From the IMG/VR virus record IMGVR_UViG_3300010883_000321, positions 1-27,687 of that record: a DNA stretch of 27,687 nt; one strand, written 5' to 3'. A program made the position numbers and the translations under genes. Each line of letters begins with the position of its first letter. Positions within the stretch are counted from its first letter, which is position 1. The notes below the pieces were generated by a model. That model was given only the letters and a program-made list of their open reading frames with translations, was not told the origin of the DNA and searched no databases. Positions 2,585-27,687 of this stretch are shown piece by piece. The DNA comes from a virus.

Positions 2585-5500
2585 CTAGTCTTCTCGACGC
2601 GCGGATCGGTCCTTCTTGTAGCCGCGAACCAGGTCATGCCAACGCCAGTTGTCCGCTTCGTCGTACATGGCGGCCAGCCCCGAGAAGGTTCTGTTGAGCT
2701 GTACCGCCGGCACTCTCCCGGTAATGGCGCCAGCCAGTAGAACGTACTTGGCGTACCGGCGGGCTATATCAGCGTACTGCGCATCCGGCTCTTCGTTTCC
2801 GAACTCATCGATAACTTTCTCAAGGCCCGCCAGAGACTTGCTTGCAGCATCAAAGCCGATCGTGCCGGCCCCACCACTGTAGCCGTAGCCGCTAGCCAAC
2901 CCGGACGCAATGTCCCGAACGACGGGGATGGTACCGAGAGCCGTCGCCACGGCATCTTTAGCGATCCAGTCCAGCATATCCTGCTTCTTTTCGTCCTTCT
3001 CATCCCAGTCTGGCAGGTCTCCCCTGATCAGGCCGGATGCTAGAGACTGCAGGGCCAGCAACACAAACAAGCGTGTGGCTGCTCTACTTGTCGAGGCCAC
3101 GGGAGTGCTCATCACGTTCTGAGAGAACTCCACCCCGACACTGCGCAGGACTGCGTATAGAGCGGAGAAGAAGGTGTAGAACATGGTCAGCCCCTTCACT
3201 ACACCCTTCTGCCGCTGGATAGCCGACAGATCCTTCAATCCGCCGGAAGACTGGCTGAGACGCACAACGCGGTCGGCGTATTTAATAGCCGCATCGGTGT
3301 CGCCTTTAGCCACACCCTCAACAATTCCGCGCAAAGCGCGGTTGTACCCGGCTGTCCATACAGGGATATCCACCGTGTAAAACTGCACCTCTGCGATTGC
3401 CTGCATGGAGAACCGCTGCACGCTTGTTACCGGGCCCTCTTTTGAGGACAGGCGCTTGAGCACATTGGAGACTTCCCGGTCCATACTCTTCCGCCGGCCC
3501 CGCATTTCGCCAGATATACTGATCACAAACTGTACATGGCTGGGGCTAAAAGCAGCGGCGACACCAGCAGCGATGTCTTTCTGCGCTACTACAATGCCGG
3601 CTGGGCCGTACCCGCTGTCCGCGAGGAGGCGGTCCTGCCCGTTGAAAAGACCCAGCGTCTGCATGGCCAGTGTGCTGTATGAGAAGCCGAGGACTGCGAC
3701 AGTCGTGTTGGTGTATATATGCTGGATAGCTTTCTGCCACCAACCAACCGGCGGGCTGTCGTTTCCGTTTGAAGCGAGGGCGGCCACCCACTTCGTAAGC
3801 TCGTCCGTGTACGCTATACCGACCTTGTTCTCCAACTCGGCTCGAATATCCCGGTCACCAAGTATCTTGTTTGCATTCCTCACGGCCTCGTAGTGCGTGA
3901 TGAAGTGGATGGTGTTGTCAAAACCAGTAGCCATCCGGCTGATGTCTAGGTCCACAGGTGCGGCGTATCCCGTTCTGGCCTTAGTCATGGAGCTGTTGAT
4001 ACTGGCCCGCCCCGTGTCGCCCTGCATAAGCTCCAGCGCCGTCTTTTGCTGCAGGTCAACGGCAACGCCGGCGATAGTGCGATCGTACATCATCGGGAAG
4101 TAGCCGCCCGTGATGTCTCCGAACTTAGTTGTGACAGTGCGCGGCTCTACCCTGTCCGGGGAGATCCCGTGCTCTCTGCGGTAGATGCCCTCTACCGTGG
4201 GGTACAATTTCTCGGCGTGCTTCCAGACGGCCCTAACAAGGTTCCACTCCTGCTCAGTCAGGTTATCGAGAGCGGCGTCAATCAACTCTTCGTTAACGTT
4301 CCACCCGGCTCCCTTGACTTTGGTCTTAACGTCGCCCGCCATACCCCGAATGAACTTGTCTAGGTTGCTCTCGTTGCCGACGTTGATGGCCATCATAATC
4401 AGATTGCCGCGATTGAACCGCATCCCCGGCTTACCGAGATCGCCGACGTCGACTGGCTTACCGAAGCTGCGCCGAACCTCCGTCGGAAGATCAGCTATCA
4501 GAGCTCCGATGAGCTTCGAGACCTCCTCCTGAAGGATATACTTGTCTGCGGCGGCCTTATTGAACGGCTCGTAGATAGTCTGGTGCCACGGCCCAAGGGC
4601 GCGCCCGTCGAGCGACTCGAGGAGGAACTCGACTTTAAGAAGTTGGGCGTCGAACAGCGCCGCTCCAGCGGCAGCAGAATATCTAATACGGTCATCTATC
4701 CGAAGACTGTCTGGTGAAGCTGCCTTGCCGCGCAGGCGAGACACCCTGGACTGCTTCATGCCGTCGAGCACGGCCAGAAGCTCCGCCTTGGACTCGGCAC
4801 GACTAAGCTCGTCGTCGCCTCGACGCACTTTGTTTGCCGCCCTACCCTGCTGCTCATAGCGCTTTATGGTGTCGTGAAGGTTTATGAACTGGCGGTAGCT
4901 AATTTCACTGACCGTGTTAGCTGTGTCGCCCGTGGGATTAACCAGCCAGTCAGGGACGTCGAGTATGGAGCCGTCAGCTTTCTCCCGCTCAACGATAAAC
5001 TCCTGCAGCGCGATGATCTCGTTGGCTCGGCTCTGTTTGCCGGCAGCGCCGCGGCCAAAATTTACGGCGGCAAGGATGCGGAGAATGTTGTCTACATACT
5101 CGGCCTCGATGCTGGGGAACTTCTTGCCCTTCTTCGTAAACTTCCGCATATAGCGGGATTTCTTCTCAATAGCTGCCTGGGCCTTCAAGGCCTCGGCGGC
5201 CATGTAGTGATTGACGAGGCGCTGGAACTGGTGACGGTAAGCTGAGACCCTATCCCCACGCTTCAGTGCGTCGCCGGCCAAGTCGGCGTGGCGTTTCTCG
5301 GCGGCAAGAAAGCGGTAGGGCCGGACCTGACCGCTGGGCATCTCCAGCAGACGGTCCCGGGCGTAAGCTCGGACAAAGGCCTGCTTGAAGGCTGGCTCAG
5401 ATGTACGGAGCGCCGTGAGTTCAGCGGCTAGAACCCGCGCCGTCCTCTCACTGTGCGCGCTGGCAAGCGCCGCGGCCTCTCCTCCGCCTTCTATTGATCC

Positions 5501-8500
5501 GTGCTCCTCCTCCATCTTGGCGTCGATAGCTTGTTCTACGGCCTGACCGTAAGGCTGCCTGCCGACAAGGTCGAGGATCATGGCGTCGACGTCGTCGTAC
5601 CCAAACGCCTGTGCGACAACGCCCGGAGACAGGCCGCCTTCCTCGTATACTGCCTTACTGTCAACGCGGGGGATGTCCGCCAGCGAGAAGCCCTCTGACT
5701 CAAGAATCTCCTTGAGAGTGGCTCGGTCCATGCGGTTTACCGCCTCTCCCTCGGGTAGCGTAGACCCGTCGGCGAGGCCTTGGTTGGTGAGGGCGTACAG
5801 CAGGCGGTACGCCGGCTCTGCTGCGACCTCTTGCGAAGCCTCTCCGCGCAGCGTCTCGCGCTCCTCCTTCCACCAGGCAGTGCGCTCCCGCCGCAGCTCC
5901 TTGATATGCTTGGCTAGCTGGCTCGCACGTCGGTCGTCTTTAGCCTCAGCAATCTGCTTCTGGTAGGCAGCAAACTGCGTCGGCGTCATACCGGCCTGCT
6001 CTGCAGTGCTGTACAGGGCGGCGAGCTTGTACTGCCCCTCGATCATAGCGATCTCCTCGTCGGAGGCGAGCATACGATCGACAACTGCGGTCACTTCTGC
6101 GGAGAATTGGACGTCTAGCTTGGAGCCGGCGAGCTTCGTGTAGACAGACATGACCCAGACTTTGAACGCCGAGAAGGCGGCAGCCAAGGACAGGCTCGGA
6201 GCGCGTCCTGTGGCAAAGTAATTTTCGACGCCCCGAGCAAACTGCTCGTGCATGGCGACGCTCAGGTAGCGGCTAGGCCCTGAGCCGCGCAGCTCGCCGG
6301 ATCTCGCGTAAGCAGAAACCTGAGCCTCGGTCATCTGCTGCAGGGCGGCGACGCTGTCCTTGTCCTTATCCTTCTTGGCGCGCCTGACAGCCTCCTCGCG
6401 CAGCTCTAGAGGGCGACTGGCCCACCAATCAGTAACGACCTTGAAGTCTCGCTGGAAGCGACCGCCCACGGCGAGAGCGTCTCCCTTTAGCTGCTCAAGC
6501 CAGAAGTGGCCGCTCTCGTGCAGGAAGGTAGTCGCATCGGCCTTCTCAAATATCTGGAGCAGGTTGACCGGGTCACCGTCCTGATCGTTGATTAAGTCTG
6601 AGGGGGTAAATCCGCCTCTGGGGCCGGCTGCTCCACGCTGCTGCTCGAAGGCTGTGGTTCCGCCTCGCTCGTACTGGTCGATGGCTGCGGCGAGCTCGCG
6701 GGACGCTTGAACCCTGACATCACGATACCGCTGCCGAGCCACTCCCGCACTTCCTGCGGGGTCATTTCTGTCACTGGCATAGTCGTAGTCCTTCTTCTCG
6801 GGGAAGGCCGCCTGTAGCCGAGCGGCCTTAACAGCATATTCTGACGCAAGCGCAACATCAACAGCGTCTGCGAAACTACGCGGATCAACACCCTCCGCCA
6901 AGATCAGGGTCATCTGACCTTCTATCGTGGACTGACCGCCGATCGGTGGGAAACCCTCGATGCCACGCAGGGTCTGGTAGATCGCGTCGATCTCCTGCAG
7001 ACTCTTGTCGCCGATCTGGATACGAACCGCCCCCGCCTCGAACGACCCCTCAAAAGCGTCGGCTGACAGGGCGACCATACTATCTTGAGACAGCACAAAG
7101 CCTACGGCATTAGCGACAGCAGCGGGGTCGCCGGAGGTCAGGCGTAGAGAGAACGACGGGTTGGTGTCGTCTTGGTAGCTACCGATTTGAGGAGATACTG
7201 AACCTTCAGCTCCCGCTGCTTCTAAGACAGAGGGTAGGACACTCTTCGATACGGTGTCGCTGATTGCGAGCTGCGCTGCGGGGGGAAGGGCGTTCCACCG
7301 GGCGGATAACTCTACATTATTAGGGTCCGGGGCGACCTCAAATATAACGTCGCCGACGAAGTCTACTTCTTGGAAGAGCTCTCGTCCTTCGCCCGCAGGT
7401 TCCGAGCCAACCTGCCCAGCCCCGCGTATGTCTCCGGGTTCGACCAGTCGAGCATCTTGTCCAGCGACGGCTCGCTGTCCAGATCCTCCTGCTCCATCTC
7501 CCGCAATTCCTTCGACTTCATATCCTTGGCTCCTAAATATTCGCGCAAACGCGGTGTCATAACTTTCGTTCAGGGCGCTGGCGGTGACGATGGGTACACC
7601 ATTGTCGTCCACCTCCAGTCTGTCGCGCAGGGCACCCCACAGCTCCTTCTCAGGATACCACAACAGAGCCTGCATGTCAGCCGTGGTGACATCGGTGCCC
7701 CGCTCGGAGAGGATCTCGATAGCTCTGGCCCCGGCGGCCTCCACCTGCTTGCGCTGGGTGCCGTTGGTGATCTGGTCCAGCGGGGTGGCTAGGTTGGCCC
7801 TGATTGCCTTCGCTGCGCGAGCCCATGTCGGCTGAAGCTCATCCGGGATGCTGCCCTTATCGTACTTCTTCTGCAGAGACTTGTATTCGACAGCCCACGC
7901 CTTGAGGAGCCGCTTGGAGTAGGCGAGGAGAGCGGCGTCGGTTCTTCCGTACTCTGCCTTCCACACCTCGGGTGCCTTGAGGCCCGCCAGATCCGATAGG
8001 AGGGCCTCGCCATCCCGCACTACCTTGTTGAGGCGGCGGGTCTCTGCGTCGAAGTCCTTCTTGGTCTGGTTCGTGGTCTCGGCTTGGCCCGTATGATCGG
8101 CCTGCGCAGCCAGAGCGGTGTCGAGTTCAGCGCGGGCGATATCGATGAGATCTGCTGAGCCCTGCTTTTTCGATCGGGACTTAGCGACCGCAGCCTTGAG
8201 GCGGCGACGCTGAGCGGGGATAGCCGAGGGTAGGCCGATACTCTTACCAGTGAGACGACCCCAGGTGCGGCGCATCCACAGATCAATTGTCAGGGGATCG
8301 AAGTTGCCGTTGAGGTTCTGCCAGAAGCCGTTGCCTATCTTCGGGCCGAGGGTCGAAGAGCCGTAAACCACGACATCCATCGCCGTGTTGCCGGGGGGGC
8401 TGTAGGGGATACCCGCAGCCTTCATATCTACGACCCACTCCTTGACGGTCTTCTTCTGGCGGAATAGGGCGTCTAGGTTGGCCAGTTTTTCTTGCGGGGT

Positions 8501-11500
8501 CGCTCCGTCCATAGCGGCCAGCATCGGCTTGAACTTTTTGAAGTTCTTGGCCATCGCGGCTTGCTTGTCGCCTGTGCCCCACGCCCCCTTCATGGAGTAG
8601 TCACCCGCCTTTACCATCTCCACCATTTCGGAGAAGGCTGCATCGGCAGCGGCACTGTTTTTAGATACGTCGAGGTTCTGGGACGTTACCGCCATAATGT
8701 AGGTGAACGCGAACCGTGCGTTGCTCGACGTACCGAAACCTGCTGCCTCGGCGGCGGCGTCGTCGGTGAGCATCGGGTACTTGATAGACGCGGTGGTTAT
8801 CGCCTTGAGGACGGCACCTGAGTACCAGTCGGCGGCGTTGCCTGTGCTTTCGAGGGCGAGCTGCACCTCCGCAGCCATCATCCGCCCGAGCTGGTCCAGT
8901 TGCTCCGTGGAGAGGGTCGCCGTGAAGTCGGTGATGGCATCACCCTCGAACTGCGCCTCCAGCCACTTCGCTGCGTTCTCGTTGCTCGCCAGCCGCCTGG
9001 TCGGCAGAGCGCCGGCGCGGTAGATCGGGTTGACGCGGGCGGCCTCTTCCTCGGTAAGGCCGAGGGACGCTGGGTCTTGGACGGTGGCACGGGCCTGCTC
9101 TAACGCACCGTCAGGAGCGTCTTGGTACAGGATGTTGTCGTCGGAACTCGGCCGGCGGCGGCCCATCTCGGATCGAGCCGCAGTTAGGTCGCGTTTGGCC
9201 TGCTCGTAACCGCCTTGCCCTGTTGCGCCCTCCGCCTCAAAAGCGGCTATTCTTTCAAGCCTGTTTGCCTCAAGGGAGGCCAGCTCGGGGTCCGAGAGGT
9301 CGCTTATGCGAGGCGCGTTGGGCAGGCCCTCCACCACAAAGTCGGAGCTAAGTGGATCAGATACCTCGAGCTCACTTCCAAGCAGCAACTCTTCGCCGTT
9401 TGGCAACCGAACAATGACGCCCCCCGCCTCGCTTCGCGCGACGACCTCAAGGTTCTGCTGGTTACCCTCGGAGTCAAATACGGCAATCTGCCCCTCTGGC
9501 GCAGCCTCTCGTGTAGGGGTGGTGGCCGCGGGTTGTCCACCTAAAATCTGCAGGTTATCGGCCTCAAACAGCGCAGCAGCGTCTACTGGCCTGCCGGTCT
9601 CCTCGGTCATCCTGATGGCGCGAGTAGCGTAACGCTGCGCGGTGAGCAAGCCGAACAGGCGGCTTTTGTTGGCGTCATACTTACCAGTAGCTTCAAGCTG
9701 CCCTGCTACCTGATCTTGGATCTGAGCCATATCGGTGTTGAGCTTAGTCAGCGAGGCGTCGTCCAGGTTTGGAGCGAGCTTATTCCGTGTGCGCTCCTCT
9801 AGCTGCTGCTGGATCTGGTCACCAATACCGGCGTCGACATACTCACGAGCCTCGGACGGTGTCATGCCGTTGGCCTCAAACGCCGTGTGCTCGATGAGGG
9901 CGTCGAAGCCGTCCTTCCCCAGAATGTGGCGGACAAACGTGGCGGCGGATACCTCGACAGCGCCGCCCTCTGCGGCTAGGCGCTTTACGTCTTCGGGGTC
10001 CAGGCCGAGCGTCTGAGCGGTTTCTGCGCCCTGCTCGAATAGCGGACCGGCAGCGATGTAGACAGTATCGACACCCTCGCTGGCGAGCTTCTCTCCTAGA
10101 ACGCTGGCGACCGTGTCCAGTTTTACCAGCGGGATACCCGCGATCAAGCCTTTCAGATTGGTGGCTCCTTTGAGCCACTGCTCGGCCTTGCGTGCGTCCG
10201 CGGCGCGCTTGGCGTCATGGGCACCCGCTGTGTAGCCCTCAATAAGGGTGGTGGGGACACCCATACCCGCGCTGAGGGTCGACTCCAGCACGGCTTGCCG
10301 TATATCGAGTTCCCCTGTAGCTTGAAAGCCGGCAAAGCCCTCGCCAACACCCTCAAAAACGGTATTAAAAGTGGTTCGCTCAGCAAGTTGGAGGGTCAGG
10401 GATCTGGCTTTGAAGAAGGTGCCTCCGCGTAAATACCCGAGGGTAGCGAGCTGCACCCCGGCGATAGCCGCCCCCCGCTCCCGTCCGTAGGTTACCCAAA
10501 GCCTCTGCGCGTCTGGATCTCGCATGAAAAGCTGCACACCGACGGGGGTGTTTAGATCTATGCCAGTCTTCTTCTTCAAGAACGCGAAACGCTCTTCGTC
10601 TGCACGAAGATTCTCCGCTTGAAATTGACCGAACGTGCCGACCGTCATACCCGCGCGCGCGCCGAAAAGGCGCGTTGCTGCGGCGCTGGCCCCCAGAATC
10701 GGAGCATTACGCGCAAACATCTCAGCCGCCGCCGCAAAGAACCCGGCAGGGTCTTCATACACCAGACGAAGAACAGCAAAGTCGCTGTCGGCCTCCATGG
10801 CTTTCCGCATAAAATCAGAGGCTACCTCCCCTGACGGTAGCTCAGCCGCGGTTTTTCTCATCACTTTAAGGATGGCCGCAGCTTCCATTAAAGAATCTGC
10901 CCCCAAAGTATCCGCGGTCTCGGTGTTAAAGCCGCCGGCGTAGTAGACCCGTGCAACCTTAGTAACGGCGGCGCTAACACCGTTCGCAAGGTCCAACGGA
11001 GTCCAGATATACGGAATGAAGGTATTGGCTGAAATTCCCCCCGGGGGGAAGGCGACCGCAGTGAACGTGCCTACGGCTGTGTCCCACGGAGTAGTGCGCG
11101 CTGCCCGTGCAACCGCGGCATCAACGCCGGTGCTAGATAAGCCGAACCCCTGTAATAGCTCTGCGACGCCCAGGGATAGCATGTTACTCACGCCCCGAAT
11201 GAAGCCTCTGTCCCGTTGCGCAATAATTGCTTCTGGAGTGAGCTTGGGTAGCAGCATCCGCATCATAGTGTCTACCTGACCCTCAGCGGCCAGCACGGGG
11301 TCGATCTCGCCGCGCAGAATGGCGGCCTCCTCGACGTTTTCTGCCATGCGCTTGCGGGTGACACTGTCGAGCTCCAGAGCTCTCACTAGCCCAGGATGCT
11401 CTAGGGCCCGTGCGAGCTGGTCGTCGGTTAGATCGTCCACGGGGATTCGAGCTGCCCTGGGGAATACATCTGCGCCGTCCGCGCCATTGAAGACGGGCAC

Positions 11501-11968
11501 ACCACCCGACTTTTCGTAGACGTCCCTGACCATTTTAATGAGGGCGGCTCGGTTTGCGGGGATGTCCTCTGTCAACGTTAAATTCTGGAGGACAGCGAGC
11601 GAGCGCCGGTCTATCCTCGCTCCCCATTCCTCGGCCTTCGAGCCGACCAGAGGCCCGCCGAAGACGTTCCACTGCCGTGGTGGGACCGCGGGGGGCTGCT
11701 CCTTGAGCGGGCGGCCTAGAGGATCTGTAATTTCCTGACGCGGGCCTACTTCTTCGGGGGGGCTTTCCGCAGTGACGCCAAAATAAAACAGGCCGTCCGA
11801 TGTAGTCGGCTCAGGCGGCTTAGTGCGGCGACCGGCAGCGGCCTCAAAATCAAACGAAGTGGCAGCGGGCTTTGGGGCGGGAGCAGAAGTGTCCGGCGTA
11901 AACACGGGGACGTCTTGCTGCTCATCCTTTTTTCCAGCGGCAGCGCCGTAATCAAATGTGTCAGTCAT
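2585..11968 (-). CDS. Giant virion/ejection protein with embedded metallopeptidase-like domain, 3127 aa
   Basis: Occupies the position of the last internal virion protein (T7 gp16) and is about twice that length. The N-terminus (1-60) is low-complexity and contains FDYGAAAGKK (5-14) and FDFEAAAGRR (39-48). Residues about 400-600 are Ala/Gly-rich and partly hydrophobic. Around 1060-1240 is a conserved large-phage-protein domain ending GFWQNLNG then TIDLWMRRTWGR. At 1817-1821 is HESGH with glutamates at 1908 and 1915 in HEQFARGVENYF, a zincin-like metallopeptidase signature common in phage polyvalent proteins. Residues about 2240-2750 and the C-terminus resemble DarB-type or other very large ejected phage proteins. 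I see no T7-type lysozyme/transglycosylase signature and no methylase or helicase motif. ATG 11968 overlaps the upstream stop by ATGA. Likely packaged in the head and ejected with DNA. The peptidase activity is inferred from motif only. Confidence 0.85.
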   Translation of the reverse strand: MTDTFDYGAAAGKKDEQQDVPVFTPDTSAPAPKPAATSFDFEAAAGRRTKPPEPTTSDGLFYFGVTAESPPEEVGPRQEITDPLGRPLKEQPPAVPPRQWNVFGGPLVGSKAEEWGARIDRRSLAVLQNLTLTEDIPANRAALIKMVRDVYEKSGGVPVFNGADGADVFPRAARIPVDDLTDDQLARALEHPGLVRALELDSVTRKRMAENVEEAAILRGEIDPVLAAEGQVDTMMRMLLPKLTPEAIIAQRDRGFIRGVSNMLSLGVAELLQGFGLSSTGVDAAVARAARTTPWDTAVGTFTAVAFPPGGISANTFIPYIWTPLDLANGVSAAVTKVARVYYAGGFNTETADTLGADSLMEAAAILKVMRKTAAELPSGEVASDFMRKAMEADSDFAVLRLVYEDPAGFFAAAAEMFARNAPILGASAAATRLFGARAGMTVGTFGQFQAENLRADEERFAFLKKKTGIDLNTPVGVQLFMRDPDAQRLWVTYGRERGAAIAGVQLATLGYLRGGTFFKARSLTLQLAERTTFNTVFEGVGEGFAGFQATGELDIRQAVLESTLSAGMGVPTTLIEGYTAGAHDAKRAADARKAEQWLKGATNLKGLIAGIPLVKLDTVASVLGEKLASEGVDTVYIAAGPLFEQGAETAQTLGLDPEDVKRLAAEGGAVEVSAATFVRHILGKDGFDALIEHTAFEANGMTPSEAREYVDAGIGDQIQQQLEERTRNKLAPNLDDASLTKLNTDMAQIQDQVAGQLEATGKYDANKSRLFGLLTAQRYATRAIRMTEETGRPVDAAALFEADNLQILGGQPAATTPTREAAPEGQIAVFDSEGNQQNLEVVARSEAGGVIVRLPNGEELLLGSELEVSDPLSSDFVVEGLPNAPRISDLSDPELASLEANRLERIAAFEAEGATGQGGYEQAKRDLTAARSEMGRRRPSSDDNILYQDAPDGALEQARATVQDPASLGLTEEEAARVNPIYRAGALPTRRLASNENAAKWLEAQFEGDAITDFTATLSTEQLDQLGRMMAAEVQLALESTGNAADWYSGAVLKAITTASIKYPMLTDDAAAEAAGFGTSSNARFAFTYIMAVTSQNLDVSKNSAAADAAFSEMVEMVKAGDYSMKGAWGTGDKQAAMAKNFKKFKPMLAAMDGATPQEKLANLDALFRQKKTVKEWVVDMKAAGIPYSPPGNTAMDVVVYGSSTLGPKIGNGFWQNLNGNFDPLTIDLWMRRTWGRLTGKSIGLPSAIPAQRRRLKAAVAKSRSKKQGSADLIDIARAELDTALAAQADHTGQAETTNQTKKDFDAETRRLNKVVRDGEALLSDLAGLKAPEVWKAEYGRTDAALLAYSKRLLKAWAVEYKSLQKKYDKGSIPDELQPTWARAAKAIRANLATPLDQITNGTQRKQVEAAGARAIEILSERGTDVTTADMQALLWYPEKELWGALRDRLEVDDNGVPIVTASALNESYDTAFARIFRSQGYEVEGIAGDGAGGSGQRAVAGQDARLVEPGDIRGAGQVGSEPAGEGRELFQEVDFVGDVIFEVAPDPNNVELSARWNALPPAAQLAISDTVSKSVLPSVLEAAGAEGSVSPQIGSYQDDTNPSFSLRLTSGDPAAVANAVGFVLSQDSMVALSADAFEGSFEAGAVRIQIGDKSLQEIDAIYQTLRGIEGFPPIGGQSTIEGQMTLILAEGVDPRSFADAVDVALASEYAVKAARLQAAFPEKKDYDYASDRNDPAGSAGVARQRYRDVRVQASRELAAAIDQYERGGTTAFEQQRGAAGPRGGFTPSDLINDQDGDPVNLLQIFEKADATTFLHESGHFWLEQLKGDALAVGGRFQRDFKVVTDWWASRPLELREEAVRRAKKDKDKDSVAALQQMTEAQVSAYARSGELRGSGPSRYLSVAMHEQFARGVENYFATGRAPSLSLAAAFSAFKVWVMSVYTKLAGSKLDVQFSAEVTAVVDRMLASDEEIAMIEGQYKLAALYSTAEQAGMTPTQFAAYQKQIAEAKDDRRASQLAKHIKELRRERTAWWKEERETLRGEASQEVAAEPAYRLLYALTNQGLADGSTLPEGEAVNRMDRATLKEILESEGFSLADIPRVDSKAVYEEGGLSPGVVAQAFGYDDVDAMILDLVGRQPYGQAVEQAIDAKMEEEHGSIEGGGEAAALASAHSERTARVLAAELTALRTSEPAFKQAFVRAYARDRLLEMPSGQVRPYRFLAAEKRHADLAGDALKRGDRVSAYRHQFQRLVNHYMAAEALKAQAAIEKKSRYMRKFTKKGKKFPSIEAEYVDNILRILAAVNFGRGAAGKQSRANEIIALQEFIVEREKADGSILDVPDWLVNPTGDTANTVSEISYRQFINLHDTIKRYEQQGRAANKVRRGDDELSRAESKAELLAVLDGMKQSRVSRLRGKAASPDSLRIDDRIRYSAAAGAALFDAQLLKVEFLLESLDGRALGPWHQTIYEPFNKAAADKYILQEEVSKLIGALIADLPTEVRRSFGKPVDVGDLGKPGMRFNRGNLIMMAINVGNESNLDKFIRGMAGDVKTKVKGAGWNVNEELIDAALDNLTEQEWNLVRAVWKHAEKLYPTVEGIYRREHGISPDRVEPRTVTTKFGDITGGYFPMMYDRTIAGVAVDLQQKTALELMQGDTGRASINSSMTKARTGYAAPVDLDISRMATGFDNTIHFITHYEAVRNANKILGDRDIRAELENKVGIAYTDELTKWVAALASNGNDSPPVGWWQKAIQHIYTNTTVAVLGFSYSTLAMQTLGLFNGQDRLLADSGYGPAGIVVAQKDIAAGVAAAFSPSHVQFVISISGEMRGRRKSMDREVSNVLKRLSSKEGPVTSVQRFSMQAIAEVQFYTVDIPVWTAGYNRALRGIVEGVAKGDTDAAIKYADRVVRLSQSSGGLKDLSAIQRQKGVVKGLTMFYTFFSALYAVLRSVGVEFSQNVMSTPVASTSRAATRLFVLLALQSLASGLIRGDLPDWDEKDEKKQDMLDWIAKDAVATALGTIPVVRDIASGLASGYGYSGGAGTIGFDAASKSLAGLEKVIDEFGNEEPDAQYADIARRYAKYVLLAGAITGRVPAVQLNRTFSGLAAMYDEADNWRWHDLVRGYKKDRSARRED

Positions 11969-15024: not shown

Positions 15025-15469
15025 CTGAAAACCTCCTGAAGAACACACGGTTGCTCTCTTCGTAGCCAGACCGCGGCGCAACTTCGGCAAGCCTACTCCC
15101 AGACGGGGCGCTAACCAACATACCAACTGCGCCCTTCTCAACCGCAAGTTTCTCAGCGGCGCGCAATAGGCGTAAGCCCGCGCCCGTGTGCCGGTGCTTA
15201 GATGCGACGAAGAAGCTCTCGGTGGCTGCCATAGGCAGGCTATATTTGGGGAGAACCGTGACGAGAACGCTAACAAAGCCCAGCAACTGATCGTCGTCAA
15301 AGGCAGCGAGTAGGGTGATGAGACCGCTCTCCTCCATCTTGTAATAAATATCCGCAGACAGCGTGACAGGCAGCCCCCCCAGCGCGCACTCCTCGGCGTA
15401 CTCCTGCAGCAGAGCCGAAAAGTTTGGAGCTGAAGATAGCGCCTCGCAGGTTACAGCCCGGACTTCCAT
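15017..15469 (-). CDS. GNAT-type acetyltransferase-like protein, 150 aa
   Basis: The protein has GNAT (Gcn5-related N-acetyltransferase) architecture: strand LITLLAAFDDDQLLGFVSVLV (about 50-70), then TESFFVASKHRHTGAGLRLL (83-102) containing the acetyl-CoA pyrophosphate-binding loop R-H-T-G-A-G (93-98), a long helix (LRAAEKLAVEKG), then GMLVSAPS and the SGYEES terminal region typical of the fold. Such proteins recur in podoviruses between the tail nozzle and internal virion protein genes. The substrate is unknown. It could be a virion-associated or host-modifying enzyme. ATG 15469 overlaps the stop of the nozzle protein gene by one base (TGATG). The assignment to the superfamily is firm on the loop motif; the biological role is not. 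Confidence 0.8.
   Translation of the reverse strand: MEVRAVTCEALSSAPNFSALLQEYAEECALGGLPVTLSADIYYKMEESGLITLLAAFDDDQLLGFVSVLVTVLPKYSLPMAATESFFVASKHRHTGAGLRLLRAAEKLAVEKGAVGMLVSAPSGSRLAEVAPRSGYEESNRVFFRRFSDE
15032..15037 (-). promoter_or_regulatory. Ribosome binding site AGGAGG deciding the cupin-like gene start
   Basis: A perfect anti-Shine-Dalgarno complement on the minus strand, separated by 7 bases from ATG 15024. It lies within the 3' end of the GNAT-like gene and shows that the 92 codons open upstream of that ATG are not part of the downstream protein. Confidence 0.85.
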
Positions 15470-18258
15470 CAGTTACCGCCGACCACTACGTCCGGGATCA
15501 AAGCGAGCAGGTTCATCGGCAGCGGATCTCGCTGCTGCACGATGACATAGCCGTCCTTGTTCCAGCTCGGTGACATCGTCACGCCCTTGTCCCCCGTGAC
15601 CCACGCGGGTGGCTGGCCGTACTGCGCCGACAGGCCGTACTTTATCTCGCGCATATGGTCCCGATCGGGTCCGTACCATCCGCCCAGTGTGGTCTCGAAC
15701 CGCATAGTAAGGCGACCGATCTTCTTATCCCGGCCCTGGATGGTCTCCACAGCCTTGCCGTTGTCTACGCGGAGGGACTGCATCTCGGACGTATACGGCA
15801 GGCCCACATGCACCCTGCTGGCGGGGCTAGGGAGCGTCACGGAGCCGCTCGACACGGTCAGGGAGCGTACAACGTACCCGTTGGCCAGTGCGACCACCGA
15901 CTGCCCCTCTAAGTGCCACATGCCGCCCACTGTGGTGACGGCCTTACGGACCACCCCAGCGGAGCTGTATACTTTGAAGGCGCTGCCATTAACATTGGCC
16001 CCGTTGTTCTGGAGCTGGAATGTGTGGGTGGTGGCACCGGCTACAGTATAGCCAGTACCCTCGATCTCGGTGTCGTATGACCAACCACGAGTAGCGGTGC
16101 TGTCTGCAACCTTAACGCCCGTTATGTCGACGACATCGCCGTTGCTAAACCCATGCGAGGCGGCGGTGACAACGACGGGGTTGGCGTTAGTAAAGCCCGT
16201 GATGGCTACGGGGGTGTCCAGCGTCAACCCGCTGTCTACGAAGTAGCTGTCCTGCACGTCGGATATATCGCGGGTCCGCATACGTTCAATGTACTTGACT
16301 GTCGCCCCTCCGACGACGCGGTCAATGACGCAGTAAGTGAAGTCGTCGTCGCCTTCACGAATAGCAGCGGCTGATTTGAAGTCGCCTTTGGTAGTATGCC
16401 TGTGCCAGCCAAACACGTTCTGCTCTCTGGAATACGTCATTCCAAGAAGGACGCCGTCGTCCCGAACACACCAGAGAAGGCTGTGCGGCGCTTGGGCGTA
16501 GGTCCAGTCAACGATGGTGTTGTTGTCAAAGAGGTGGCGGGCCAAGACAGACAGGTCGTTGCCCGTGTAGCTATCACTCTCGAACTTGTAGCCTAAATCG
16601 CGCACGGCCTGGCCGGGCTGCATATAGATGACGATATCGCCGGCGACAATGGGTGGAAGCTCAGTGGAGCCGTAGTATGACTGAGGCTTGATCTGGATGC
16701 CCGAAGGAGTGATGACGCCATCCACGCCTTGCACCAGCCACTCGCCACCGGACGTCAGAACCACAAGATCGGACAGGGAAACATAGTGGCGTATCTCGTT
16801 GACCTGCCTACTGGCCAGGGTCACCGTTATTGCGTCGTCGTCCCTCGTCGGGCTGGACACCGCGAGGTTTGTGAAGTGGGCAGTCTGCGTCATCCATACG
16901 CGCTGGGTATGGGTGTCGCTGTTTCCAAACAGCTTTCGCTGCTCATGGTAACCCACAGTAGACGGGTAGTTACCCGTCCCCACGAATGGGTTACGAGTGC
17001 GCGGAGGTGTGTCGTCAACTTCCGGGCCGATATTCTTATCGTCGAAGTCGGTGTTCTCAGTGCGGCCGACAAATCCAAACAGGCCGTTCTTCTCACGGTA
17101 GACGGTGTAGCTCTCTGCCCCGGATACGGCTGTCCACGCAACAGTGTTATCCGGCGTTGCATGGCCGTTTGTAATTTTAATAAACATAGGAAACACGGAG
17201 CCGCCTGACGAGTACGTCGTGTAGCTCGTCGTGTTAACCGCAGCGCCTGTGCTGTCTGTAAGCTCAAACGTGGTGCTTGCCTTGTTGGCTACCTTAAACA
17301 CCTGACCGTTAGCTTCGGTCATACCCACTACGCCGCTGATATAAACGTCATCCCCATTCACAAGGCCGTGCGAACCTGAAGTTGTGACGACGCCGGGGTC
17401 TGCTTTTGTTATGGCGGTAATGCCGCTGCCTACCGCGGGGGCAGTTCCCCGCAGGCTTTCTTCCCCGCTATCGACGTTCGTTGCGGTGACGACGTAGCGC
17501 TCTGTCTCGGAGCCGGTGCTGTTTACCGTAACCCCTAAACCCGTAGGGAAAGCCTGCTCAGGCTTAAAATCTATTTCGGTAAGGGACCATGCATCGTGGT
17601 CCGTGCGGGCGATGTCTCGGGGGGCGTAGTTTGGATGCGTTACAGTTAGAACATCCGCGGACTGAACATACTGCAGACCAAAGATGTCCGCGGTCGCGTA
17701 TGGCGTAGTTAGCTCGAACACCTCCTGCGCGGTTCCTGCAGATCCGTAGACCGTAAAAGCCCCGCTGTTTATGTTCGCCCCGGCGTAATCGGTTAACGCA
17801 AACGTGTGAGTAGTCGCGCTGGCAACTCTAAAGAACCTGCTGTTGAGCTCGGTCATACCCACTACGCCGGTGATGAATACGTCGTCGTCATTGCTAAAGC
17901 CGTGGCTGCTTGACGTGACCACAGCCGGGTTCGCTCTGGTGACAGCGGATATAACCTTCGCGCTACCTGTAAGCACCTGGCCGCCGTCCTTGTAGACGCG
18001 CATATACAGGTTGCCAAACTCAAGAATGTAGGTCTGGGTGGTGTTGAACTCAAATGGAATGAGCCGGACAGACGTAGACGGCGTTTTAGATGGGGCGACG
18101 TACTCCAGTCCGGGTCGGTTGGTCAGCCCGCCGTGTATCTGCACGAAGAAATTCTCAGCCTTGTAGACGGAGGTCTTGTACTTGTCGATGTCAACGCGGG
18201 CAGCAATAGCCTCGCTGACTTCTCCACCCGACAGATTAGACTGGCCGACCTTAGTCAT
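15469..18258 (-). CDS. Tail tubular protein B (T7 gp12-like nozzle) with three FCCH-like repeats, 929 aa
   Basis: Tail nozzle protein. The N-terminus (QSNLSGGEVSEAIAARVDID, YKAENFFVQIHGGLTNRPG, IPFEFNTTQTYILEFGNLYMRVYKDG) is the hallmark of T7 gp12-type tail tube proteins, and central/C-terminal segments (YHEQRKLFGNS, VLTSGGEWLVQG, QPGQAVRDLGYKFESDSYTGNDLSVLARHLF, GLPYTSEMQSL) also fit. It is longer than T7 gp12 (about 794 aa) because of three insertions of about 75-88 residues at roughly 102-178, 279-354 and 684-771, each with an ANPxVVT...SHGFxNGDxVxITGV...TF.L pattern like the FCCH domain seen in phage tail proteins. A fibronectin-III-like segment (AWTAVSGAESYTVYREK) follows the second. 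ATG 18258 forms a TAATG overlap with the gp11-like gene. Confidence 0.92.
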   Translation of the reverse strand: MTKVGQSNLSGGEVSEAIAARVDIDKYKTSVYKAENFFVQIHGGLTNRPGLEYVAPSKTPSTSVRLIPFEFNTTQTYILEFGNLYMRVYKDGGQVLTGSAKVISAVTRANPAVVTSSSHGFSNDDDVFITGVVGMTELNSRFFRVASATTHTFALTDYAGANINSGAFTVYGSAGTAQEVFELTTPYATADIFGLQYVQSADVLTVTHPNYAPRDIARTDHDAWSLTEIDFKPEQAFPTGLGVTVNSTGSETERYVVTATNVDSGEESLRGTAPAVGSGITAITKADPGVVTTSGSHGLVNGDDVYISGVVGMTEANGQVFKVANKASTTFELTDSTGAAVNTTSYTTYSSGGSVFPMFIKITNGHATPDNTVAWTAVSGAESYTVYREKNGLFGFVGRTENTDFDDKNIGPEVDDTPPRTRNPFVGTGNYPSTVGYHEQRKLFGNSDTHTQRVWMTQTAHFTNLAVSSPTRDDDAITVTLASRQVNEIRHYVSLSDLVVLTSGGEWLVQGVDGVITPSGIQIKPQSYYGSTELPPIVAGDIVIYMQPGQAVRDLGYKFESDSYTGNDLSVLARHLFDNNTIVDWTYAQAPHSLLWCVRDDGVLLGMTYSREQNVFGWHRHTTKGDFKSAAAIREGDDDFTYCVIDRVVGGATVKYIERMRTRDISDVQDSYFVDSGLTLDTPVAITGFTNANPVVVTAASHGFSNGDVVDITGVKVADSTATRGWSYDTEIEGTGYTVAGATTHTFQLQNNGANVNGSAFKVYSSAGVVRKAVTTVGGMWHLEGQSVVALANGYVVRSLTVSSGSVTLPSPASRVHVGLPYTSEMQSLRVDNGKAVETIQGRDKKIGRLTMRFETTLGGWYGPDRDHMREIKYGLSAQYGQPPAWVTGDKGVTMSPSWNKDGYVIVQQRDPLPMNLLALIPDVVVGGN
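17315..17335. repeat. 21-bp exact direct repeat, copy in FCCH repeat 2
   Basis: This 21-base stretch is identical to 17849-17869. It encodes the shared VGMTE-type loop of the second FCCH-like module of the nozzle protein. Exact DNA identity inside protein repeats that otherwise differ suggests a recent duplication or gene conversion between modules. Confidence 0.8.
17849..17869. repeat. 21-bp exact direct repeat, copy in FCCH repeat 1
   Basis: Partner of 17315-17335, lying in the first FCCH-like module of the nozzle protein gene 534 bases away in the same orientation. Confidence 0.8.
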
Positions 18259-26289: not shown

Positions 26290-26634
26290 TCACCCTAATT
26301 CAGTTTCCGAGACTAGCCCTGCCAAACGCAGAAGGTCAAGCACCGTATCCTCTTCCATGACGTAGAGCCGCCGGTTGCGGTCTTCCCTCACCACTATCAT
26401 ATCGCTGCCTCCGCCCTGATCCAGAGCGTCGTACAGAAATTTGAAGCCGCTCTTCTTGCGCTTGGCTTCGATGATGTATCTGCCGGCCAGCTTGACGTCG
26501 CCCTCGAACGCCTCGCCAAGCCTCGCATATGCTCCGCTCGCGAATACGCGCCGAGCTTCGACGCCGTTCTCCGTCCAGAAGTCCGCCGTCTCTTTCTCTA
26601 GCTCATAACCCCGAGCCTTGTTTCTATTCGCCAT
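26290..26634 (-). CDS. PD-(D/E)XK nuclease, Hjc-like Holliday junction resolvase type, 114 aa
   Basis: The protein MANRNKARGYELEKETADFWTENG... has the Hjc-type resolvase layout: a basic N-terminus with R-G-x-x-x-E (E11/E13), RRVFASGAYARLGEAFEGDV with D46, and IIEAKRKKSG with E56-x-K58, the D...ExK catalytic core. A helical C-terminus follows. It would cut branched DNA; just upstream of the terminase genes it may debranch replicated concatemers before packaging, as T7 gp3 and T4 gp49 do (inference). ATG 26634 is chosen because TGGAG lies 8-9 bases upstream; the longer frame to 26715 lies inside the HNH gene. It overlaps that gene by 11 bases. Confidence 0.8.
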   Translation of the reverse strand: MANRNKARGYELEKETADFWTENGVEARRVFASGAYARLGEAFEGDVKLAGRYIIEAKRKKSGFKFLYDALDQGGGSDMIVVREDRNRRLYVMEEDTVLDLLRLAGLVSETELG

Positions 26635-27124
26635 CAACGTGACTCCATGTAGCACCGGATAAAATCGAGCTGAGGTTTGATTTGGTGGTGGAATACCTGT
26701 CCATAATATCGACATAACGGCAGCCGCTGCTGCGCATCTCTCTGATGCCTCGAATGTCGTCTTCCGTAAACTTTTTATTACCCTTGTGGTGGTTGCCGTG
26801 GCGTATTTTATCTGCCGTATTCTCCGCCGCAGTTGCCCACCTCAAATTACTAACGTGGTTATTTCTTGGGTTGCCGTCCCAATGTGCCACTTGATTTTTG
26901 TCTGGCGGGCACGGCCCCAAGAATGCAATCGCGACCATTCGGTGAGCAGATGTGTGTATAATCTCTCCATCACAACGGATTTTGAGCGCTCTGTAGCCGG
27001 CCTTGGTGTGGTAGCCCTTTAACAACCGGCCCACCACCAAATTATTTTTGTTCCGCAACAGCCGCACCTGCCCCTCATTTGAAACTTCGTAGTCCGCAAT
27101 GAAAGAGCGTCGCCATTCAACCAT
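26624..27124 (-). CDS. NUMOD4/HNH homing-type endonuclease, 166 aa
   Basis: Free-standing HNH endonuclease. Residues 1-50: NUMOD4-like EWRRSFIADYEVSNEGQVRLL (W-x-x-x-x-Y-x-V-S-N-x-G-x-V-R). Then HTSAHRMVAIAFLGPCPPDKNQVAHWDGNPRNNHVSNLRWATAAEN, an HNH_3-type zinc-free nuclease core (H-W-D-G-N ... N-x-x-x-N-L-R-W-x-T), and a C-terminal helix-turn-helix (FTEDDIRGIREMRSSGCRYVDIMDRYSTTKSNLSSIL ... W), which would give DNA specificity. Strong GGGGAGGA lies about 10 bases upstream of ATG 27124. Its GC content is clearly lower than that of neighbours, consistent with recent insertion. It overlaps the resolvase start and supplies its ribosome binding site. Confidence 0.9.
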   Translation of the reverse strand: MVEWRRSFIADYEVSNEGQVRLLRNKNNLVVGRLLKGYHTKAGYRALKIRCDGEIIHTSAHRMVAIAFLGPCPPDKNQVAHWDGNPRNNHVSNLRWATAAENTADKIRHGNHHKGNKKFTEDDIRGIREMRSSGCRYVDIMDRYSTTKSNLSSILSGATWSHVDGE

Positions 27125-27261
27125 TTTTGGTAGTCCTCCCCTAACCCGTACGGGTCGGCCAGCACCATGCTGGGCCGCCCCCGTAGGGGGTGGATGTTGT
27201 TGGATACGAATAGCTCTTTAGTTTCAACGGCTTAACCCCTATCCAACACTATCCAACACGC

Positions 27262-27279
27262 TATCCAACATGTTGGATA
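27262..27279. repeat. Perfect 18-bp palindrome (TATCCAACA | TGTTGGATA)
   Basis: Two half-sites abut head to head with no spacer, forming a perfect palindrome suited to a dimeric DNA-binding protein. It lies at the end of the direct half-site series 27240-27270. Confidence 0.9.
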
Positions 27280-27307
27280 TAAGTCGTTGATATATATAGA
27301 TAACCCA

Positions 27308-27331
27308 TGTTGGATGCATATGCATCCAACA
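27308..27331. repeat. Perfect 24-bp palindrome, half TGTTGGATGCAT
   Basis: Each 12-base arm is TGTTGGATGCAT, so the two half-sites are separated by an 8-bp self-complementary GCATATGC centre. It can be a dimer operator or a cruciform. It lies 28 bases from the 18-bp palindrome, across an AT-rich run. Confidence 0.9.
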
Positions 27332-27371
27332 CGATTTTTGTCAGTTCTTGTTGGATAGCCCCAAAATGGGC

Positions 27372-27399
27372 AAAAACGGCAGAAACGCTCGGAGCGAGC
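27372..27399 (-). terminator. Possible weak intrinsic terminator after the right-edge gene
   Basis: On the minus strand GCTCG-CTC-CGAGC (27387-27399) forms a 5-bp stem with a 3-base loop, followed by GTTTCTGCCGTTTTT. The T-run is interrupted, so termination is uncertain. It lies 15 bases after the stop of the edge-truncated gene. Confidence 0.35.
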
Positions 27400-27414
27400 A
27401 CCTCATCTCTGACA

Positions 27415-27687
27415 CTAAACACGAGCCACCGCCAACGCCCAAGACTTACCCTTCTTAGTAGTGCGGACAACGCCCAGCTCGCTCGATACGGGTACGTCGA
27501 ACAGCTCCCTGATCCTGTCATATCTGGCAGCAGTGACGTCGCCATCTGTCAGCGGCCACCCCAATATCCCCTTGCCGTGGACGTCCTTGATCGTGTGCGT
27601 GCCCCCGCCCATCGTCTGGCATATCTGATAGGCCAGCTCCCCGGCCAGATATGCGTCGTCGCCGGAATGCTGCAAGACATTCTCAGC
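27415..27687 (-). CDS. Hypothetical protein, C-terminal part only (5' end outside window)
   Basis: The frame is open to the right edge (AENVLQHSGDDAYLAGEL...) and ends at TAG 27415. At least 90 residues are present. An internal TTG at 27675 is in frame but is unlikely to be the true start because reading continues upstream. Visible segments: GELAYQICQTMGGGTHTIKDVHGKGILGWPLTDGD and AARYDRIRELFDVPVSSELGVVRTTKKGKSWALAVARV, a compact mixed alpha/beta end with a winged-helix-like feel (inference). I do not recognise the family. Its place upstream of the operator/origin-like region suggests an early or DNA-metabolism gene. Confidence 0.7.
   Translation of the reverse strand, partial: AENVLQHSGDDAYLAGELAYQICQTMGGGTHTIKDVHGKGILGWPLTDGDVTAARYDRIRELFDVPVSSELGVVRTTKKGKSWALAVARV

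Follow-up and report, generated by a model that had tools for sequence, protein, structure and literature searches.

A probable iteron-type replication origin behind the Prim-Pol-helicase gene of a podovirus-like phage lineage

The origins of pSC101 and R6K and the oriR of P1 contain iterons and an AT-rich element, together with an IHF site in some of them. In the SaPI/PICI satellites, as the consulted excerpts describe them, the initiator is a helicase with a C-terminal DNA-binding domain, the iteron origin lies directly 3' of its gene, and this origin has one set of iterons on each side of an AT-rich region (PMC7581432, PMC6092414). The pRN1 ORF904 replicon and phage BIP-1 combine Prim-Pol, helicase and winged helix in one protein, and the excerpted account places an origin element, poorly conserved in sequence, directly downstream of the gene (PMC4234260). 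In the PLE of V. cholerae, the DNA-binding domain of RepA and the iterons covary and are swapped as a module, and two main replicon types are described in the excerpts (PMC8263062, PMC7145576). Swapping of PLE origins has been tested experimentally and is linked, in the part of the report consulted, to an origin-directed nuclease (PMC8263062). Additionally, excerpts on mobile elements describe AEP-RepA fusions, in which an archaeo-eukaryotic primase is joined to a RepA-family helicase (PMC5862659). No paper describing the origin of the lineage considered below was found among the open-access papers searched.

The window, which is the whole stretch of DNA analysed here, spans one IMG/VR virus record (27,687 b) in full. 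It carries the tailed-phage genes for TerL, a connector and a major capsid protein, and is probably a phage fragment. Close to its right end lies a dense array of short repeats. The sequence-only reading had proposed, among other functions, an iteron-type origin with a phage-coded initiator, and this proposal gains support from the place and layout of the array and from its linkage to the adjacent Prim-Pol-helicase. It is likely that the array is the replication origin of an uncultivated, podovirus-like phage lineage, situated behind the gene for its own initiator.

Layout of the repeat array

Eight exact copies of TGTTGGAT, four per strand, lie within 27198-27357 (Table 1). Only 0.42 are expected in the window and none of 100 shuffles reached eight, so the array of eight half-sites is real. 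The rest of the window has no copy, which argues against a random spread of the half-site. In its longer form, the half-site is TGTTGGATA in six of the eight copies and TGTTGGATG in the other two, and the three direct copies on the minus strand are spaced by 10 and 12 b. When 8-mer repeats were counted per 290-b stretch (step 50), the array scored 8 and all other stretches of the window 3 or fewer.

Table 1. Features of the array and the adjoining gene end, in window coordinates
Feature	Positions	Strand	Exact TGTTGGAT at	Basis
GC hairpin CCCCCGTAGGGGG, far end of array	27178..27190	.		
Half-site TGTTGGATA	27198..27206	+	27198+	
IHF-like site 2, with one mismatch (no mismatch in L023)	27222..27234	+		
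Half-site TGTTGGATA, direct copy 1 of three	27240..27248	-	27241-	
Half-site TGTTGGATA, direct copy 2	27250..27258	-	27251-	
Half-site TGTTGGATA, direct copy 3 and left arm of 18-bp palindrome	27262..27270	-	27263-	
Half-site TGTTGGATA, right arm of 18-bp palindrome	27271..27279	+	27271+	
AT-rich run separating the iteron blocks; candidate melting site	27280..27307	.		function inferred
Perfect match to IHF consensus WATCAANNNNTTR (minus strand: TATCAACGACTTA), inside AT-richest stretch	27280..27292	-		
Half-site TGTTGGATG, left arm of 24-bp palindrome	27308..27316	+	27308+	
Half-site TGTTGGATG, right arm of 24-bp palindrome	27323..27331	-	27324-	
Half-site TGTTGGATA, closest to initiator gene	27349..27357	+	27349+	
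Terminator-like hairpin, directly 3' of initiator gene	27382..27404	-		consensus scan only
Final 90 codons of the initiator gene for the Prim-Pol-helicase, truncated at the window end; encode a predicted winged-helix domain, the putative array reader	27415..27687	-		

The two perfect palindromes noted from the sequence are exact in the window, although they are not conserved as such. The 18-bp palindrome (27262-27279) is a head-to-head pair of half-sites with zero gap, the 24-bp palindrome (27308-27331) is a pair around 8 b, and both flank the AT-rich run. The remaining group-A relatives have a mismatched left arm in the 18-mer (TTCCAACATGTTGGATA) and a different centre, 7 b long, in the 24-mer (mostly TGTTGGAT-AGATTCT-ATCCAACA). 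Both palindromes are common to the window and L018 only, and the array of L018 is identical to that of the window. The palindromes were rejected as a conserved unit, for relatives keep the half-sites and not the palindromes. A single strand of the array folds better than shuffles (z -5.2), for which the inverted iterons alone would suffice.

The AT-richest stretch of the array is that between the two half-site blocks, and an AT-rich region with an iteron set on either side is found in the window and in most of the 24 representatives listed. The motif at 27280-27292 is presumably an IHF site, judged by the consensus. This consensus was picked after the window had been seen; in exact form it occurs 23 times in 25 array regions (from 25 of the 45 loci having the initiator gene) vs 3 times in the other 303,478 b, counts that are not independent events because the array regions are related by descent. 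Shuffled array regions contain a mean of 0.32 and a maximum of 3. By consensus only, at least one exact site is present in 19 of the 25 array regions and absent from 6, and a second IHF-like site often lies 56-82 b from the first in 24 chosen regions. The half-site had been judged not to be a DnaA box, and the exact box TTWTNCACA indeed has no occurrence in the 25 array regions (7,500 b), which contain three one-mismatch matches to TTATNCACA.

A survey of hairpins and layout in 24 chosen loci found a GC hairpin near the array end in 16, possibly a priming or termination signal; the pattern C4+N3-5G4+ has 35 overlapping starts near array ends vs 12 in 280 kb elsewhere. Strand skew, which had been suggested as a check, gave no separate origin signal and follows the coding strand in the five long records. 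The array DNA had no match in annotated phages, Rfam returned no match, and no tRNA was found.

The initiator gene and the place of the array

The gene at the right end of the window had been described as early-type; it is the last 90 codons of a Prim-Pol-helicase. A complete homologue in the relative L012 has 717 aa and contains Prim-Pol and a RepA-like helicase. Pfam recognises PF09250 Prim-Pol (3.7e-15) and AAA_25 (3.1e-27) in the initiator, and no other family. The AlphaFold2 model of the L012 protein (mean pLDDT 72) matched the prim-pol of pRN1 ORF904 (3m1m, 2.4e-7) and the RSF1010 RepA helicase (3.2e-4) in a Foldseek search of the PDB. A PDB search by sequence gave no match. At a coverage of at least 80%, no match to the initiator was present in 50,697 phage or 72,556 plasmid records. 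The C-terminal 90 aa, predicted from an alignment of the window's sequence with those of 20 relatives, have the element order H-E-H-H-E-E (pLDDT 81, pTM 0.71), which fits a winged helix as predicted. Foldseek of this domain against the PDB gave no significant match (best E 0.53), and VIA-align returned many winged helices among its rows, all tied at Z about 4-6.

The position of the array behind this gene is shared by most relatives. An exact search with a 19-base array pattern, which selects for the presence of the array and not for its place, returned 11 stretches; 10 have the array in the same place, and L011 is a chance hit. Both L011 and L020 were discarded as chance loci with few scattered sites and low GC. 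A TerL search returned 80 loci, and in 9/9 of those with TerL at least 85% identical and the initiator end in view the array is again in the same place. The array is thus present in the close relatives found by either route, the exception being L027:1-3610 (TerL 87%), with no initiator, Rus, TerS or array in the 3.6 kb upstream. Of the 45 loci having the initiator gene, which include near-identical records and the window, 42 have the array no more than about 100 b from the stop codon of this gene. In L058 it is found ~0.45 kb downstream of the initiator, and L065 and L094 have no clear array. Further loci came from two initiator searches and from the genome collection, in which a first scan found nothing and a second yielded the single locus L133; this lies on a MAG contig labelled Rhodospirillaceae and is truncated by the end of the contig. 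Thirteen of these further loci were tried, and the array is present in all 10 that have enough sequence.

The next recognised gene downstream varies, being HNH, Rus or others at 0.13-3.3 kb. In the window, the HNH endonuclease gene (26624-27124) starts 74 b beyond the last half-site. This gene is present in the window, L018 and L023-L025 and absent in L009, L017, L029 and L092; since some close relatives have it and others do not, it is probably a mobile nuclease beside the proposed origin. A LEM-3-like GIY-YIG domain forms the N-terminus of the protein at the TerS position in L124 (18124-18894, -) and L121 (10357-11160, +), and the remainder of the L124 protein matches terminase small subunit families. 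L125 encodes an ArdC-type anti-restriction protein with a zincin-like metallopeptidase domain (10125-11024, +). Elsewhere in the window are one 3,127-aa reading frame with no Pfam match (2585-11968, -) and a 929-aa nozzle-like protein with E1_FCCH-domain matches (15469-18258, -).

The half-site is linked to the helicase and C-terminal half of the initiator

The half-site differs between relatives. At least 13 motif groups, assigned by eye from the commonest 8-mer, have the half-sites TGTTGGATA, CGTGCAAG, AGCAAGCT, TGAACAAAC, TGAACAAGTT, GCAGATCA, GTACCGAA, GTACTGAT, AACTTGAGC, AGGTGCAA, TGGTGCA, CGTGGCAG and GGGGAAACG, with others in distant relatives; group 'I' (L058) later proved to be a degenerate J-type array. 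The layout remains constant though the half-site changes, with a block, an AT-rich/IHF segment and a second block. Between groups A, B and C, primase and helicase are 60-80% identical, and the C-terminal domain is 28% (A/B, A/C) or 52% (B/C) identical, compared with 83-94% within groups. The respective identities of helicase and C-terminal domain are 96 and 86 for A/A, 68 and 28 for A/B, 75 and 28 for A/C, and 76 and 52 for B/C, in a comparison that left out the near-duplicates L021, L024 and L025 and the distant or truncated L053, L065, L084 and L094. In pairwise comparisons of 26 of the 45 loci, the C-terminal domains of like-array pairs are 77-95% identical in 16/16, and those of pairs with unlike arrays but TerS at least 82% or TerL at least 90% identical are 21-29% identical in 20/23.

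The clearest exchanges are seen where the surrounding DNA is nearly the same. L070 and L071 (CGTGGCAG) are 99.83-99.86% identical to L072 (GGGGAAACG) over 3.6-4.3 kb starting just past the array (99.83% over 3,582 b for L070), and despite this near-identical downstream DNA their initiator halves and arrays are unlike. L085 (GGGGAAACG) and L070 share 88% DNA identity up to about initiator codon 254, have nothing alignable across helicase, C-terminus and array, and are 91% identical again just beyond. The half-site therefore tracks the helicase and C-terminal half of the initiator rather than the primase, the terminase or the flanks. This linkage bears on the other half of the sequence-only reading, an operator array. 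In that case, a phage regulator encoded elsewhere would bind the half-sites and control the switch from early to packaging genes. The array does sit between an early-type gene and late genes, a dimeric repressor could well use its palindromes and direct repeats, and a small HTH_3 protein is encoded in the relative L012 (11486-11680). However, the array type follows the helicase and C-terminal half through the cassette swap, and a primase-helicase is an unlikely regulator of transcription. Moreover, a consensus scan found no promoter on the late-gene strand within the array, and L012 and the window have no half-site outside it, hence none at the initiator promoter. An operator is thus unlikely, and this part of the earlier interpretation is not supported.

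The same comparisons make a packaging start highly improbable. Such a cosB- or pac-like site would have its repeats bound by the terminase small subunit, with IHF, as the cosB of lambda uses IHF. TerL lies about 1.1-2.1 kb downstream of the array in many loci, and IHF sites and repeats of mixed orientation are also cosB features. However, TerS proteins of groups M and N (the CGTGGCAG and GGGGAAACG groups) are 98-100% identical in 4/4 pairs and their arrays share nothing. Across groups A, B and C, TerS is 61-82% identical while the half-site is wholly changed, and the array stays by the initiator, not by TerS. The packaging site was rejected on the near-identical M and N terminases with unlike arrays.

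A finer comparison is offered by L055 and L056, which are 95% identical over 8.9 kb. The ACCGA core occurs 12 and 13 times in L055 and L096 and is absent from L056; ACTGA is absent from L055 and L096 and occurs 10 times in L056, which also has three AGTGA. All 10-13 half-sites have thus changed together. The C-terminal domain (95 residues) takes 8 of the 18 L056-specific substitutions vs 5 of the 53 between the same-motif L055 and L096 (Fisher p 0.0024). Among the L056-specific changes are D683N and A690R, which fall in the predicted third helix or close to it, and others affect the wing 712-715. In contrast, the partial rank correlation with array similarity, for which the common set is 13 loci, is 0.52 for the helicase and 0.02 for the C-terminal domain. 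Since the helicase outdoes the C-terminal domain here, sequence by itself assigns the reader to the helicase and C-terminal half, and not surely to the winged helix. The best reading is that the C-terminal domain of the adjacent initiator reads the origin, with its predicted winged helix in contact with the half-sites, as the predicted fold, the comparisons of L055/L096 with L056 and of A, B and C, and analogy suggest. The separate small regulator protein proposed earlier as the reader thus gives way to a likely reader within the Prim-Pol-helicase. Most likely, relatives changed the repeats and the matching part of the enzyme many times.

Origin model and comparison with known systems

The initiator would be one polypeptide with a Prim-Pol primase, a RepA-like hexameric helicase and a C-terminal winged helix. 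The winged helices would bind the iterons of both blocks, IHF would bend the DNA between the blocks, and the AT-rich run may then open with the help of IHF. Because no DnaA box is present, the helicase ring is proposed to load or form at the array by itself, without DnaA. The fused primase would make the first primers for the phage family-A polymerase, an enzyme encoded in the relatives G003 and G006.

The simplest account of an array that is tied to a primase-helicase and contains IHF sites and an AT-rich run is a replication origin. It might alternatively be another site of the same initiator, serving copy control or handcuffing, primosome assembly or partition, with the true origin elsewhere. 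Phage P4, for example, has a second site, crr. The evidence establishes the link to the initiator and not the start of synthesis, and the GC-rich hairpin that many arrays have close to one end would suit such a role. However, no other 8-mer cluster in the records of the window (a fragment), G003 and G006 is as dense as the array, none of these records has a second site of its kind, and the IHF sites and AT-rich run between the blocks suit strand opening. Another site of this sort therefore seems quite improbable, and an iteron-type origin remains the preferred interpretation.

More tentatively, these free-living phages may evolve private origins, in which the code and its reader (helicase and winged helix) are swapped as a cassette between phages that are otherwise nearly identical, or drift in concert over all 10-13 iterons. 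Continued selection for new origin types would drive such exchange or concerted drift; this reading is less likely than not. If true, the pressures could include origin-directed nucleases, satellites that borrow the initiator, and titration of the initiator by co-infecting kin. HNH or GIY-YIG genes occur near these origins. The lineage also provides a natural collection in which DNA-reading domains of one protein family are paired with their target sites, with at least 13 half-site groups, including a pair that differs by few residues (L055/L056) and a clean cassette swap (L070/L072/L085). It opens two questions, namely how origin specificity changes without death of the replicon and what drives origin turnover in phages.

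Compared with the iteron plasmids that use DnaA, the arrays have no DnaA box, and the initiator is itself helicase and primase. A close likeness is to the SaPI/PICI module as excerpted: there too the iterons lie directly 3' of the initiator gene, in two sets on either side of an AT-rich region, and the initiator helicase has a C-terminal DNA-binding domain, as is proposed for the winged helix here. In contrast to the SaPI Rep described there (DUF927 or D5/Primase_Cterm), the helicase is of the AAA_25/RepA-like type and fused to Prim-Pol. In addition, IHF-consensus sites lie between the iteron blocks, and the carrier is not a satellite but a full phage with TerL, connector and capsid. The Prim-Pol domain and the downstream origin are common to pRN1, whose excerpted description has instead an SF3 helicase and a stem-loop origin of ~100 nt (PMC4234260). 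The covariation and modular exchange of initiator domain and iterons resemble those of the PLE, a satellite with a RepA of the RepA_N type for which the excerpts give no predicted primase or helicase activity (PMC8263062, PMC7145576). The AEP-RepA fusions also join a primase to a RepA-family helicase, and the part of the account consulted describes for them neither an origin-reading domain at the C-terminus nor iterons alongside the gene (PMC5862659). The module of this lineage belongs to none of SaPI/PICI, PLE and pRN1, its helicase being neither SF3 nor DUF927 and its carrier a phage. Overall, it would show that an origin layout like that of the PICIs also occurs in full phages, with an initiator helicase of another kind.
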